From positions 1 through 34,098 of the forward strand of contig JAURQB010000162.1 in NCBI GenBank assembly GCA_030836365.1: a stretch of DNA of 34,098 nucleotides, given 5' to 3'. This DNA is from Bdellovibrionota bacterium (GTDB lineage Bacteria > Bdellovibrionota > Bacteriovoracia > Bacteriovoracales > Bacteriovoracaceae). Below the pieces are notes generated by a model. That model had not been told where the DNA came from. It saw only the letters and a list, made by a program, of their open reading frames with translations, and ran no database searches. Below, in pieces: positions 6,817 to 13,247 of this stretch (its first letter is position 1; each line of letters starts with the position of its first letter). A program made the translations under genes and the position numbers.

Positions 6817-7959
6817 ATGAAAGGAATTTTGAATAAGAAAGCTACTCTCTTTAAAACAATGATTACATCATTGTCATTATCCATAGTAGGCTCCTGGGGG
6901 GCTTTTTATTGGTTAACGACTAGTATAGGAGATGTTAATTTAAGTATGGAGGGCCTGAGTACCTGTTTCTCTAGGGTCTCACAAAACTATAGCGGTAAAA
7001 TGATTGGCCCAAATCAACCTTATACATCGTCCAGTTTTTACAAAGTTACTGAGGAGTGTTTCTCGGATTTAGAAAAGGTAATAAACAATTCATTTTTTAT
7101 AAAACTCAACAAATCTGTAAATAAAAACTTTGAAGAGCTAGTTAAAAAATCATATTGGTTTCATCGCGATTCTATTGTTGAAAACGAGTTTACAGCTGTA
7201 AAAGACGGCAAAGTTGCTAGTATGACTAAAAACTTTCAAGAAATTGAATCCGTTTATGAATTAGTTAGTGAAGAAGTCTCGTCAATTCGGTCTGAATTAA
7301 ATTCAAGAAAAAAATGGGTATTTTCATTAGGTTTATTTTCCGTTCTATCGATGGCCTTTATCTCTTTATTTGGACTAAGCCGTAAGGATAATGAGAGAGT
7401 TACAAGTGCTCGTATTGATGATGTCTCTCAAAAAGAAATTGAAAAGCTGACGCGTCCATTGGTAGAACAAATAGCAGTCTCAACACAAGGGACAGTTTCA
7501 AAATCGACGATATCTGATCAAGTCACCTTATCTCCTGGGCCTGAAAAGTTTGATACATTTTTTAATCGATTTCTTCGTCTCATTGCCCCAAGACTTATAA
7601 GAAAAGGTATTAATTTTGACTTTTCTGTCGATACGGGAATACCTAGAGTCATGAATCCCGAACAAACTCATCGAAATCTAGAAATATTTTTTGAAAGAGC
7701 AACGAATTTTAACCTCTCAGGGGGGAGGGTAACTCGGATAGATTGTTATCAGTTACATTCCAAAAAAACTGAATTAAGATTTTATGACAATGGTGTGTGT
7801 CTAATTAACTCTCTTAAAAATTTTAAGAATGTACGTGCGAGTAATGGTCTTGTATTGGGAGTAGAGATGAAGCAGATTATTTCTTCATCGAGGAAAGGTA
7901 AAATTAAATCTATTTTTAAAGGAAAGAAAAAAGATTTAATGCGGGAATTACAAATCTAG
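6817..7959 (+). CDS. Membrane protein with two TM segments and degenerate HATPase_c-like C-terminus
   Basis: TM1 near residue 20 and TM2 near residue 170 flank a putative periplasmic helical domain; C-terminus MNPEQTHRNLEIFFERATNF...LRFYDNGVCL...NGLVLGVEMKQII resembles a histidine kinase ATPase domain. Confidence 0.65.
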   Translation: MKGILNKKATLFKTMITSLSLSIVGSWGAFYWLTTSIGDVNLSMEGLSTCFSRVSQNYSGKMIGPNQPYTSSSFYKVTEECFSDLEKVINNSFFIKLNKSVNKNFEELVKKSYWFHRDSIVENEFTAVKDGKVASMTKNFQEIESVYELVSEEVSSIRSELNSRKKWVFSLGLFSVLSMAFISLFGLSRKDNERVTSARIDDVSQKEIEKLTRPLVEQIAVSTQGTVSKSTISDQVTLSPGPEKFDTFFNRFLRLIAPRLIRKGINFDFSVDTGIPRVMNPEQTHRNLEIFFERATNFNLSGGRVTRIDCYQLHSKKTELRFYDNGVCLINSLKNFKNVRASNGLVLGVEMKQIISSSRKGKIKSIFKGKKKDLMRELQI

Positions 7960-9557
7960 AGTATCACTTTCGATCGTTGATAGAAGTTTGGAGTGCTTAA
8001 AATTAATTCATTAATTAATTTACGTACACTCTCAAAGTGATAATTCCTTTTAATTAAATGGTTAATGATTCTCTCATAAATAATATTATTATCACTCGTG
8101 GAGTAAAATGATAGATCTGCCATCATATTTCCAATTTGCTTTGCTATATTAAATATATCGAGCAAGGTGATGTTAACGAGAGAATCAGTTGAGATTTCAT
8201 CCCTGATAATTTTTAAACATATAGTTTGCCAGCTCTTTTCCTCTTGATATTGCGATTTTTTAACTAGGTCTAAATACAAATCACACTTCCTAAACGGATT
8301 AAAAACTTTTGATGAAAAGTAGCCAATGTAATTAGTATAAATTAAATAACCTAAGATCTTTTCGGACGTCGCTGGCAAGGGAGTTTTATTTTGTATTAGG
8401 TTTGAGACATGAAAACCGGCAATAATAGAAATCCTATTGATAGAATAGCTAGGGCAGTAATAGCTATTTGTGCCTGCGATGTGAAATAATTCACCTTGAT
8501 GGATAAGTCCTTCGTAAAATTCTCGAACTTCATTATTTAAATTTAGCTGATTAATTTTTTCAATGATAGTCTCAAGGGATGTGTGGTCATATATGTTAAA
8601 GTCTTCAAGCTCCTCATCTTGCAGCTGAAAATTAAGGGTGTCATTCAATTGCCGACAAAGATAAAGGAAATTTTCATAAACATTCCCATTAAATGATTTT
8701 AATCCAGTTTCAATAATATAATCATGAAGGTCAAACTCCGGATCGTCACAAAGATTCTCATACCAATAGATCATTGATTCATACTTAATCCACGGAGGGG
8801 AGTTTTGTAAGCTAAACTCTTTATTTGAAAACTTAACAATAATACTTTCGGACGCTAATTTCTCGTCAGCTTCCTCGTAAATACGCCAATAAATCTCTTC
8901 AAGATTTTGATGAATGACTATTTGAGAAATAGGACTAGAACAAAGATCTTTAGTTAATTTGGGTAATCTGTCGGGTAAAATATGAAGCTCTCCGAACAAA
9001 ACAAAAAAATGTTGATATTGATTATTCGAGATGTTTTTTGCAATGACTGATGCAGCCTCTTTGTCTCGATTTGCTAATGGGCCTTCAGAATTTAGAGCGA
9101 TAATGTTAAAACCATTCTCTTTTGCTAATTGAAAAAATACCTTATAGTGAATCCAAGGAAAACGCCAAGATTCTTTATAATTGATTGTCTCTAGAAATTC
9201 TCTTTCTGTAATAATATTGCGTAAGTAGTTGTCTATTGCTTTTTGATGTTTGATGTGAACAAACTCTACTCCGATGGCCATATTATTTGTTTTCGTAAAA
9301 AAAGTTTTTAATAATCTTTCGAGGTTTTTTGAGCTTTGGTCAAATGTATGGAAGTCACCTAGGTATATCACTTGAGATTGATGTATTGACTTTAAAATCT
9401 CGGAGATATCAACTATTGAAAAAGCTTTGCTCTCGTATGAATTCATTGCTTTACTGTATTCTTTTAATTCTTCTGGAATATATTCAAGGTATTCTAATGC
9501 CTTTTTTTTAGTTGTTCGGTGAATTTCAAGCCGTGACTTTTTTATATTAAGTTTCAT
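7956..9557 (-). CDS. ChaN-family (Tiki/haem-binding superfamily) protein with long C-terminal extension
   Basis: VIYLGDFHTFDQS, GVEFVHIKHQKAIDNYL, NRDKEAASVIAKNI and FVLFGELHILPDRLPK match the ChaN/COG3016 pattern; no obvious signal peptide. Confidence 0.75.
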   Translation of the reverse strand: MKLNIKKSRLEIHRTTKKKALEYLEYIPEELKEYSKAMNSYESKAFSIVDISEILKSIHQSQVIYLGDFHTFDQSSKNLERLLKTFFTKTNNMAIGVEFVHIKHQKAIDNYLRNIITEREFLETINYKESWRFPWIHYKVFFQLAKENGFNIIALNSEGPLANRDKEAASVIAKNISNNQYQHFFVLFGELHILPDRLPKLTKDLCSSPISQIVIHQNLEEIYWRIYEEADEKLASESIIVKFSNKEFSLQNSPPWIKYESMIYWYENLCDDPEFDLHDYIIETGLKSFNGNVYENFLYLCRQLNDTLNFQLQDEELEDFNIYDHTSLETIIEKINQLNLNNEVREFYEGLIHQGELFHIAGTNSYYCPSYSINRISIIAGFHVSNLIQNKTPLPATSEKILGYLIYTNYIGYFSSKVFNPFRKCDLYLDLVKKSQYQEEKSWQTICLKIIRDEISTDSLVNITLLDIFNIAKQIGNMMADLSFYSTSDNNIIYERIINHLIKRNYHFESVRKLINELILSTPNFYQRSKVIL

Positions 9558-9636: not shown

Positions 9637-12411
9637 CTATAAAATTAAACCAGTAATGACATCATTAATTAGCTCCGTAGATTTTTGTTGATACGTTGCT
9701 AATGTTATCGATTTTTCTTTTCCTTCATCGACAATAGAGTCGAGATCTTTGGCAGAAGGAATTTTTAACGTTTGAAGAATATCGGCGGGTTTGAATTCGT
9801 TAAATTGATTTAATATCTGGTGAGTAAATTCAATTAAATTTTCAGAAGAGAAGATACTGAGAGAGCAATCAGAACCACTCATTAGGTCAATTCGGTTTTG
9901 TCCATTATTGGGATCTTTAATAAGTTGGGTATTAGAGACAGGGGAGTATAACTTAAGTTTGTCGTTTGTTTTAAATTCGACATAAGCATCTGGATTATTT
10001 GGGTAAATACTGGTCAAGTTTAGTTTTATTATCTTTTGAAGAAATTCTTGATCCTTAACGTTTACTTTTGACGCCATCTTTTTGTCTTTGGAGTTAATAT
10101 GTTGTAACTTCATCTTTAGGTGCGAAAGGCAAGAAAGCGTGATAGAGGTGTCAAGGTCTTGAAACTCCCTAGCGTCATCTAAGAAAAGGCTGAGTCTCTC
10201 ATTTAATTGCTCAATTGATAATGCTTGCAGTTGATCTACTGATAAATTTAAAATATTAAAACTTGATGGAAGGTCCTGCTTAAACTCGATATTTGCGGTG
10301 GTATAAAACTTTTTTGGCACTAGTAGGGAGCGAATTTTACTTTTTATTTTAGTCGTGGCGCCACCAAGGGTTAGTTTGATAATCTGCCTGCCGATGCTTG
10401 AATTAAAATATTCTCTAAATATATTAATGTTAAGACTTCTAACAAGTGGGGTCAGGTTATAATATTGAAAAAAGGCTTCACCATATTTTTGTTTTTTTGC
10501 CTCAAGAGTATCCGAAGGAATTATCTCTATTGAGCTAGCAAGATAATCAGGAGTATGAACAATTAGTACATAAGGCGAAGTATTTTGAATATCATCCGAT
10601 GCGAAAAGGTAGTGCTTTTCATTCGTTTGATTTGTTCTTGATTCATTTGTTTCAATTTTAAAGAAATTATCCAAAGTCAGAGAGTTTGTTGCCAGATTCT
10701 TATAAAAATTTGGGTGAGTAATGGAGTTTTGGGACTGATTTTCATTTTCTAAAATTTTGCCATCAAGAACGACACTTTGGTGAAATTTGACAACAAAACC
10801 TCGCGCCAGGTCCTTTTGGTAGATCGGAGTAGTTGGCTTTTTATGTTTCCAAATATTTTTGAGCTCAGTTGAAAATAATTGCATCAATTGAAATTGACTA
10901 AGCTTGCCCTCTAATTGAAATGACAGATGACTAGACTTATTTCGGTCCCTTTCGTTTACAGTATAATTATTGAGATGTTCTTTTTTTGAAAAGATATAAA
11001 TGTGATCTGGAACTTCGCCCTTATTTCTGAGGCTTTCAAGGTTGAATTCAGCTTCAAGGTGAGCAACCTCTAATAACTGTTTTACCTTTTCTTGGTAGCT
11101 TGGGACAAATAACTTTTGATTAGTCAGAATAATGAGATAGCCACCATTGATAAGTTGATTTATTTCATTACTAATTTGCGTCGTAAGGTAGTGATGAGGG
11201 TTCTTTTTTGGTAGATCAAGCAAATTTAAAACGACTCGATGATATAGAGGTTTCTTTTTTTCTGTGTTTAAACCATCAAATAAGTTTGTCTGTCCAAATT
11301 CAGCATTGTCATTCGCACAGACTTTTTCCTTCTCCTTGTAGACCTCAATTATATACTTTACTGGATTTTTTCCATAAGTCGTCGCAAGTTGTATTAGGAA
11401 AGATAAAAATTGTAACTCGTGACAGTACTTTATATATGGGTCATTTTTATCTCTTTGGGTAAAATTGGGAAAGATTAGATTTTTCCAGCCTCTTGGGTCA
11501 GAGCTATTTTGAGCGAGCCAATGAGATTGAGAAAGACTTGTTACATGTTGGCCCGAAAAGTTTACTGATAAAACATCTTGATTTTTTAATTCACTTACAT
11601 TTCTTTCTTCAATCCAATTAGGAAAGTGGATCAGTAATTCGTTTATCAATTTACCAAACTCTTGGTGAGAGATGGAGTGTGGGTAAGTTGTTTTTTGCGT
11701 TTTAAGGTAGTTTGAAAAGGAAGTAATTTTCATCAATTCTGTTATGGAAATGGTTTCCAGAACTTTAACGATTGATACTATTTTTAAATTAGTCGTCGAA
11801 GAGGGCCTGTACCAACTATAACTATTTTTTTGTAAGCTTTTAATAGTTATATTATTTTGGCTGGTTGCTTTAAACACCTTCTGGAAAAAATAGCTTGGGT
11901 TTTTTAGCAGATGCTCATTTAATTCAATTTGCAAGCTCTCGCTAAGCTTTGAAAGAAACTTAATTTTATAGAGGTAAAGAGTAACACTTTTAAAACTAGA
12001 GACTTTAATAAAATCCAATACGATTGAATTCATCTTGTTTGTTGGTAATGATATTTCTCTTAAAAGAAAGTCTGGTTTCTCTAAAAAAGAAGGATTGATC
12101 TTACTATTATTTTCATGGCAATAAGTTTTGAACTGTTCAAAGATAAGCTCTTGCAAGGATCTGTTTGCCTGAGATAAGCCTCGAAACTGCTGAATGCAAT
12201 CAGACCAAAGTTTCATTAATATTTTTTTTACCTTAATACCATTTTTGGAAATTAAGCTCTGTCCTGACCACCCTGGTGTAAAGAAATCGCCAGGGTTAAA
12301 ATCATTTTTATTATCGTGTTTTTCAAGTGAATATGCGTGTGCGCTCCCTCCCCTAATTGGTTGGGCAGAGTCGTTCAGCCAGTCAATTGCTTTAAATGAG
12401 TTTTGCTTCAC
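9637..12411 (-). CDS. Large hypothetical protein; possible degenerate N6-methylase/specificity-like fold
   Basis: Long ORF (924 aa). Segments INGGYLIILTNQKLFVPSYQEKVKQLLEVAHLEAEFNLESLRNKGEVPDHIYIFSKK and YFNSSIGRQIIKLTLGGATTKIKSKIRSLLVPKKF resemble N6-methylase and TRD regions. Confidence 0.8.
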   Translation of the reverse strand: MKQNSFKAIDWLNDSAQPIRGGSAHAYSLEKHDNKNDFNPGDFFTPGWSGQSLISKNGIKVKKILMKLWSDCIQQFRGLSQANRSLQELIFEQFKTYCHENNSKINPSFLEKPDFLLREISLPTNKMNSIVLDFIKVSSFKSVTLYLYKIKFLSKLSESLQIELNEHLLKNPSYFFQKVFKATSQNNITIKSLQKNSYSWYRPSSTTNLKIVSIVKVLETISITELMKITSFSNYLKTQKTTYPHSISHQEFGKLINELLIHFPNWIEERNVSELKNQDVLSVNFSGQHVTSLSQSHWLAQNSSDPRGWKNLIFPNFTQRDKNDPYIKYCHELQFLSFLIQLATTYGKNPVKYIIEVYKEKEKVCANDNAEFGQTNLFDGLNTEKKKPLYHRVVLNLLDLPKKNPHHYLTTQISNEINQLINGGYLIILTNQKLFVPSYQEKVKQLLEVAHLEAEFNLESLRNKGEVPDHIYIFSKKEHLNNYTVNERDRNKSSHLSFQLEGKLSQFQLMQLFSTELKNIWKHKKPTTPIYQKDLARGFVVKFHQSVVLDGKILENENQSQNSITHPNFYKNLATNSLTLDNFFKIETNESRTNQTNEKHYLFASDDIQNTSPYVLIVHTPDYLASSIEIIPSDTLEAKKQKYGEAFFQYYNLTPLVRSLNINIFREYFNSSIGRQIIKLTLGGATTKIKSKIRSLLVPKKFYTTANIEFKQDLPSSFNILNLSVDQLQALSIEQLNERLSLFLDDAREFQDLDTSITLSCLSHLKMKLQHINSKDKKMASKVNVKDQEFLQKIIKLNLTSIYPNNPDAYVEFKTNDKLKLYSPVSNTQLIKDPNNGQNRIDLMSGSDCSLSIFSSENLIEFTHQILNQFNEFKPADILQTLKIPSAKDLDSIVDEGKEKSITLATYQQKSTELINDVITGLIL

Positions 12412-12580: not shown

Positions 12581-13159
12581 GTGTCGCTTAAGATTATGGG
12601 AGGCCTATTTAGAGGTCTCAATTTGCAAGTAAATGACCGAATAACTAGGCCAACTGGTGTTCTATTAAAGCGAAAAGTTTTTGATGCCAGGCAAAGATTT
12701 GATGGCGTGCATTTTTATGACCTGTGCGCTGGGTCGGGGGCTGTTGGGTTAGAAGCTTCTAGTCGCGGCGCAGAATCTGTTACGTTGGTTGAGGAGAATT
12801 TACTTGCTATTCGACTAATTAAATCTTCCGTCGATTTGATCAAAAAGCGTTTTGAAGTTAGCTCATTTGGTAAAATATTTGTTGTCAAAAAGTCAGTTGT
12901 TAGTTGGTTGCCATTTTTCTTCGCAAGCGCTTCATCTAGTTCAAATATTGTCTTTTTTGATCCACCATACGAAGATTCAAAACTCTATGATAGGGTGCTG
13001 GATTTATTTGAACTCTCTGATTACAAGGGAGAGCTTTGGATCGAGTATGACTTAAAGGCAAAAGAGAGCGTTTTGGTCAAGATCAATGATGCGTACGAAA
13101 AAAGAGGAATCAAAAAGTACACTCATGGGCAGCACTCGATTTGTCTTTTACAGTTTTGA
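12581..13159 (+). CDS. rsmD: 16S rRNA (guanine(966)-N(2))-methyltransferase RsmD
   Basis: GTG start with AAGGA RBS; FYDLCAGSGAVGLEASSRGA (motif I) and VFFDPPYEDSKLY (motif IV). Confidence 0.9.
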   Translation: MSLKIMGGLFRGLNLQVNDRITRPTGVLLKRKVFDARQRFDGVHFYDLCAGSGAVGLEASSRGAESVTLVEENLLAIRLIKSSVDLIKKRFEVSSFGKIFVVKKSVVSWLPFFFASASSSSNIVFFDPPYEDSKLYDRVLDLFELSDYKGELWIEYDLKAKESVLVKINDAYEKRGIKKYTHGQHSICLLQF

Positions 13160-13247
13160 CCTCGCATTTAAATTAATAATCCCTGATTGTAATTTCTCAT
13201 CAAACCACGTTACTATTAAGCGCCTCATTTTATTAAGGAAAGAAAAA

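Follow-up and report, generated by a model that had tools for sequence, protein, structure and literature searches.

The locus raises the question of what a protein with the outline of a DNA methyltransferase, and without its catalytic motifs, does in the cell. The window, i.e., the whole stretch of DNA analysed here (34,098 nucleotides), lies on a contig whose source genome is 68% complete. In the first-pass annotation, a 924-aa open reading frame was noticed, with no strand named, and was thought to resemble an N6-adenine DNA methylase with a specificity module that could have become a non-catalytic DNA-binding protein. We confirmed the frame and found it on the minus strand, running from a GTG start at 12411 down to 9637 (Table 1). 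Our preferred reading, to which we give a probability of about 0.5, is that this pseudo-methyltransferase derives from a methylase, has no catalytic activity, and binds DNA while tethered to the sliding clamp DnaN; both DNA binding and clamp binding are inferred.

Table 1. Features of the pseudo-methyltransferase gene and its neighbours in the window
Feature	Positions	Strand	Basis
CDS, 924-aa pseudo-methyltransferase, GTG start	9637..12411	-	Orthologues with open frames throughout
F-x-A-x-x-W-L motif, conserved, disordered N-terminus, residues 6-12, W11 invariant	12376..12396	-	Alignments; model pLDDT <50
PGWxGESLxSK motif, conserved, residues 46-56, mostly low-confidence sequence	12244..12276	-	Alignments, model
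N-terminal helical domain, YSWYRPS signature, residues 56-267	11611..12246	-	Model secondary structure
Methyltransferase-like Rossmann core, residues 243-482	10966..11685	-	Separate model, pLDDT 90, pTM 0.87; Foldseek
SAM motif I relic VLSVNFSGQHV, residues 280-290	11542..11574	-	Aligned with FDPTMGSGNFL / FSPTLRDGS of orthologues
Putative beta-clamp (DnaN) binding motif QTNLF, residues 374-378, disordered loop	11278..11292	-	Alignment; no binding data
Catalytic motif IV strand relic, residues 390-403, YHRVVLNLLDLPKK where ..NPPY is expected	11203..11244	-	Orthologue motif comparison
First segment of the first-pass annotation, residues 421-478, strand-helix-strand after motif IV	10978..11151	-	Alignment, model
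TRD-like domain, residues 488-705, conserved like the core	10297..10950	-	Identity; sub-threshold TaqI_C in orthologues
Second segment of the first-pass annotation, TRD ending, residues 668-702	10306..10410	-	Alignment
C-terminal domain, residues 706-924, start mainly helical, least conserved part	9640..10296	-	Model, conservation
ChaN/Tiki-domain gene, downstream of the pseudo-methyltransferase gene	7956..9557	-	Pfam PF04187, E 1.9e-20
rsmD, divergent, conserved neighbour across the phylum	12581..13159	+	Synteny reading

Structure prediction had been set beforehand as a test that could refute the likeness to methylases. When the full AlphaFold model (pLDDT 79.8, pTM 0.67) was compared with the PDB, all 50 of the matches listed were N6-adenine DNA methyltransferase-type proteins, with E values from 6e-6, and Foldseek comparison of the isolated core with the PDB likewise gave class-I methyltransferases in 50 of the 50 matches listed. 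By query length, the best TM-score of the core was 0.46 and those of the full protein were 0.15-0.25; such low full-protein and moderate core scores indicate that the fold has strongly diverged. A Rossmann methyltransferase fold is thus demonstrated at the level of prediction, and the likeness withstood the test. The protein itself matches none of the models of Pfam, NCBIfam, PADLOC or PHROG, and a scan of viral contigs found no relative. Neither single proteins nor the class profile found more than chance-level matches when compared with Pfam, NCBIfam, PADLOC, PHROGs and PDB sequences; TERT_C (0.0058), for instance, lay far below its cut-off.

Genomes were compared under family labels f1 to f25, the class of the window being f1. 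The class profile did not match active methyltransferases directly at a significant level (E 0.13), so the link to them runs through the orthologues of other families. Profile comparison joined the class to the f4, f5, f10 and f13 orthologues (E 3.7e-14 over 730 columns), the f8 group to the same orthologues (4.7e-37), and these orthologues to active Eco57I-like methyltransferases (E 3.3e-28). The f4/f5 orthologues passed the Pfam cut-off for Eco57I (best E 4.2e-16 among five tested), and one of them also passed those for N6_Mtase and MmeI_Mtase, which bears out the methylase likeness first read from the window. The two segments on which that reading had relied, INGGYLIILTNQKLF...FSKKE and YFNSSIGRQIIKLTLGGATTKIKSKIRSLLVPKKF, are both present and belong to the best conserved regions of the 29- and 39-sequence alignments, which is more than chance. 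The second, read as a TRD ending, is conserved in sequence; a TaqI_C specificity-domain match coincides with it, found in f4 orthologues and only below its cut-off, and the assignment to a TRD fold is tentative. The core fold is shared with gamma-type N6-adenine DNA methyltransferases carrying a TRD (M.BseCI 7qw7, CamA 7lni, BpuSI 3s1s, and LlaBIII 4xqk), and the order of helical domain, core, and TRD is that of the gamma-type enzymes (Pfam Eco57I, N6_Mtase, TaqI_C). Methyltransferase ancestry is well supported by these profile comparisons and models.

The motifs needed for catalysis have departed from those of the gamma-type enzymes to different degrees. Motif I remains recognisable as a FDPTMGSGNFL-type sequence in the f4/f5 orthologues, in which CPPE or APPE replaces NPPY at motif IV. 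The two sites read VLNLCASSGFFL and ILNLCAGSGQFL in f13; the f10 orthologues have IFNPIAGAGSLL and HFPD, those of f8, f12, f15, f19, and f25 are FSPTLRDGS-like at motif I, and those of f20, f17, and f24 have decayed further. In the Bacteriovoracia, LNTKFxGDxL stands at the site of motif I, with G287 as its single invariant glycine, and YDRIVLNLxxLPKKN at that of motif IV. The lack of a SAM motif I, first noticed in the window protein, holds for its class, motif I being kept in the f4/f5 orthologues only. The missing NPPY/DPPY proved general: none of the orthologues read has [NDS]PP[YFW] at the catalytic position, CPPE/APPE being nearest. Among 14 ordinary methyltransferases fetched from the phylum (13 from the class and one from f6), all 14 had [NDS]PP[YFW], and motif I was canonical in 12. 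As judged from the aligned motifs, loss of the catalytic motifs in the family is established, and absence of methyltransferase activity is inferred from it. Together with the predicted Rossmann fold, the lack of NPPY in homologues supports the view of a non-catalytic, methylase-derived protein.

Motif loss alone does not prove inactivity, and with motif I kept in f4/f5, a cryptic methyltransferase using an unusual catalytic motif (LNLxxLPKKN or CPPE) can still be imagined. We consider it very improbable, as the class has lost both motifs and the motif IV replacements of the different lineages are unrelated in sequence. In B. subtilis DnmA, the laboratory mutation Y465A in motif IV abolished methylation and left DNA binding intact (PMC7261158), whereas the pseudo-methyltransferase lacks motif IV naturally. 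The family thus displays a stepwise loss of catalysis, with motif IV gone everywhere and motif I retained in one clade, and offers a clear case for studying how an enzyme is converted into a structural DNA protein.

Bacteriovoracia, to which named relatives assign the window (family Bacteriovoracaceae), is the class of Bacteriovorax and Halobacteriovorax and includes known predators. Using a 29-sequence profile over 129 of its genomes, 73 of them good, we found the gene in 125 of the 129 and in all 73 good ones, nearly always as a single copy; it is a single-copy core gene of the class. Genomes G126 and G078 each have two full-length copies on separate contigs, which may reflect contamination or real duplication, and a 1.6-Mb genome (G029) carries a strongly diverged, shortened orthologue of 764 aa (L101 4758-7052). 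Three pairs of closely related species with unsaturated dS gave dN of ~0.04-0.06 against dS of ~0.8-1.3, substitution rates that demonstrate strong purifying selection among such species. TRDs of restriction systems diversify, whereas the TRD-like domain of the pseudo-methyltransferase is conserved equally with the core (mean identity 0.425 and 0.423, respectively). PF02384 (N6_Mtase) genes are patchy in the class and absent from 21 of the 73 good genomes, all of which have the pseudo-methyltransferase. The gene is not part of a restriction-modification or BREX system, since there are no partner genes nearby, the neighbourhood is fixed, and all 73 good genomes carry it; PADLOC gave no match for the window protein. 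The catalytic motifs are gone, as they would be in a decaying restriction-modification remnant, which is hardly tenable, being refuted by the presence in 73 of 73 good genomes, the full-length frames, purifying selection, and the fixed place. Compared with gamma-type methyltransferases, the family is without motif IV (in all orthologues read), without a nuclease, and without the arms-race diversity of the TRD, and the class is also without motif I.

No restriction subunit had been noticed near the gene, and we found the same: the gene is surrounded by housekeeping genes whose order is conserved, and the gene order from miaB to phoH around the locus is common to most relatives. In the class, rsmD is the divergent gene on one side, in most cases separated by a single small gene. 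The window lacks coaD (13159-13240), which nearly all relatives read have between rsmD and the gene for aspartate aminotransferase. Elsewhere in the phylum, in families reached via weak matches, the orthologues are ORFs of ~860-1010 aa, mostly divergent from rsmD-coaD-aspC; YSWY is common to nearly all orthologues of the phylum. An orthologue is divergent to rsmD in f1, f5, f8, f10, f12, f13, f15, f17, f19, f20, f24, and f25; in f4, it is near rsmD, one or more genes away. The rsmD neighbourhood was without the gene in f2, f3, f6 (inferred to be Bdellovibrionaceae-like), f7, f9, f11, f18, and f21. The gene tree kept the families mostly apart, as expected under vertical descent.

On the other side, a ChaN-domain gene is the next same-strand gene in 33 of 48 loci, most gaps being 22-58 bp, and it is likely to be co-transcribed with the pseudo-methyltransferase gene. 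The ChaN/Tiki-domain protein of the window (7956-9557) has a long remainder without a Pfam family. A ChaN-like gene also occurs in f8, f17, and f20, where it follows a gene for a ~240-aa protein. Proteins of this size stand directly after the orthologue in other families (L096 10322-11044, L097 5670-6377, L138 10228-11010, L184 7513-8220, and L185 7271-8056); the L097 protein, the only one scanned, matched no Pfam family, and no such gene was seen in the window. These neighbours, the conserved disordered N-terminal motifs, and the low net charge (the little net positive charge of the TRD was counted against DNA binding) would fit a scaffold or regulator that does not bind DNA and uses the fold for protein-protein contacts, e.g., with the ChaN-like protein or, in other families, the ~240-aa partner. 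We regard this as quite unlikely, because the core and TRD-like domain stay the best conserved parts, the lysine-rich TRD end included, and because one group has another gene than ChaN in the next position, so that ChaN is no obligate partner.

The evidence for clamp tethering is a near-invariant Q-x-[S/N]-[L/F/M]-[F/L] in the disordered loop ahead of the dead motif IV. It follows the helix 350-370 and precedes the motif IV strand, where the model of the core is least confident (pLDDT ~51 over residues 371-380). Position 1 is Q in 38 of 39 sequences and position 5 is F or L in all 39, mostly as QxS[LFM]F, while the flanks are 22-23% conserved. Q..[hydrophobic][hydrophobic] was matched by 37 of 39 alignment rows and a stricter form by 27. 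Since a shuffle control gave 0.54 expected strict matches per shuffled protein, a lone match means nothing; the aligned conservation does count, and among 15 syntenic families no other block of this kind was present, the 14 further families having none. The published clamp-binding consensus is QL[S/D]LF, more generally QxxLF, and QLSLPL binds tightly to E. coli DnaN (PMC12309361). The family thus carries a conserved, exposed peptide of this type, and physical binding to DnaN is inferred.

Related peptides are found elsewhere. QLSLDL, QLDLDL, QLTLDL, or QLDFGF stands near the N-terminus in six of six f4/f5 orthologues, a DQLSLNL-like peptide occurs in 21 of 21 f8-type orthologues, and Q-x-x-L-x-L in those of f12; no clear clamp-like peptide was found in the f10, f17, f20, and f24 orthologues. 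Y-family polymerases from three genomes of the class carry QLNFL, QLELF, QLSLF, and QIDLF. Because 4 of 12 active methyltransferases likewise have a loose form of the pattern between their motifs I and IV, the motif outside the class and f4/f5, for example in f8/f12, may be structural. Such chance peptides, and the subfamilies without a clear one, leave room for a site-specific transcription or nucleoid factor, also a non-catalytic methylase-derived DNA-binder, with no tie to the replisome and a QxSLF loop that binds otherwise or is structural. The methylase fold, inactivity, and conserved TRD would suit it equally. We hold it to be unlikely, though not to be dismissed: an isolated five-residue island in a disordered loop, with near-invariant ends and weakly conserved flanks, is typical of a docking motif, and the f4/f5 orthologues have similar peptides elsewhere in the protein.

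Under the preferred reading of a clamp-tethered, non-catalytic DNA-binding protein, the ancestor was an Eco57I/type IIG-like enzyme, a gamma-type N6-adenine DNA methyltransferase to which a target-recognition domain was fused. Catalysis (motif IV) was lost early and, in the lineage of the window, SAM binding (motif I) as well, while the gene stayed in the core genome by vertical inheritance, as sequence and model show. The methyltransferase/TRD cleft most likely still binds DNA without methylating it, the exposed QxSLF peptide would tether the protein to the beta sliding clamp DnaN, and a further partner probably docks on the N-terminus, which is conserved and disordered (FxAxxWL, PGWxGESLxSK). 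Tethering could direct the protein to DNA that has just been replicated, with control of replication, marking of the nascent strand, and organisation of the chromosome as examples of possible roles. DNA binding, clamp tethering, and a role in replication are all inferred. Only tentatively, and at less than even odds, do we go further and propose that, early in the history of the phylum, a DNA methyltransferase became a core protein without enzymatic function, one that travels with the replication clamp and reads DNA at fixed sites once the fork has passed. If true, many genomes that have no matching methylase would possess a DNA-reading factor linked to the replisome. Clamp binding, if it occurs, would mean that a group with bacterial predators among its members has a hitherto unknown component near the replication fork.

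Known systems share parts of this picture. The orphan core methyltransferases CamA (C. difficile) and DnmA/YeeA (B. subtilis) are solitary, chromosomally conserved, and without a cognate nuclease; the pseudo-methyltransferase is likewise solitary and conserved, but these are active enzymes. METTL14 and DNMT3L are eukaryotic dead methyltransferase paralogues that serve an active partner. They too keep the fold without catalysis, but many genomes with the pseudo-methyltransferase have no N6_Mtase gene at all. Hda and Y-family polymerases are clamp-tethered by QxxLF or QLSLxL-type peptides similar to that of the family; unlike them, the pseudo-methyltransferase has no ATPase or polymerase domain, and its clamp binding is only inferred. 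To our knowledge, no bacterial replication or nucleoid protein resembles a clamp-riding, site-reading dead methylase, and we know of no catalytically dead DNA methyltransferase that a whole bacterial class and much of the phylum around it retain as a core gene. Literature searches for a dead DNA methyltransferase kept as a class-wide core gene returned none, and nothing on this family.

We also assigned the start codon of each orthologue as the start nearest the conserved N-terminal motif. It is TTG or GTG in ~42 of 49 orthologues, 37 of them TTG (window 12411 and loci L031-L084), and the conservation of a weak start codon suggests that translation of the pseudo-methyltransferase is low or controlled.
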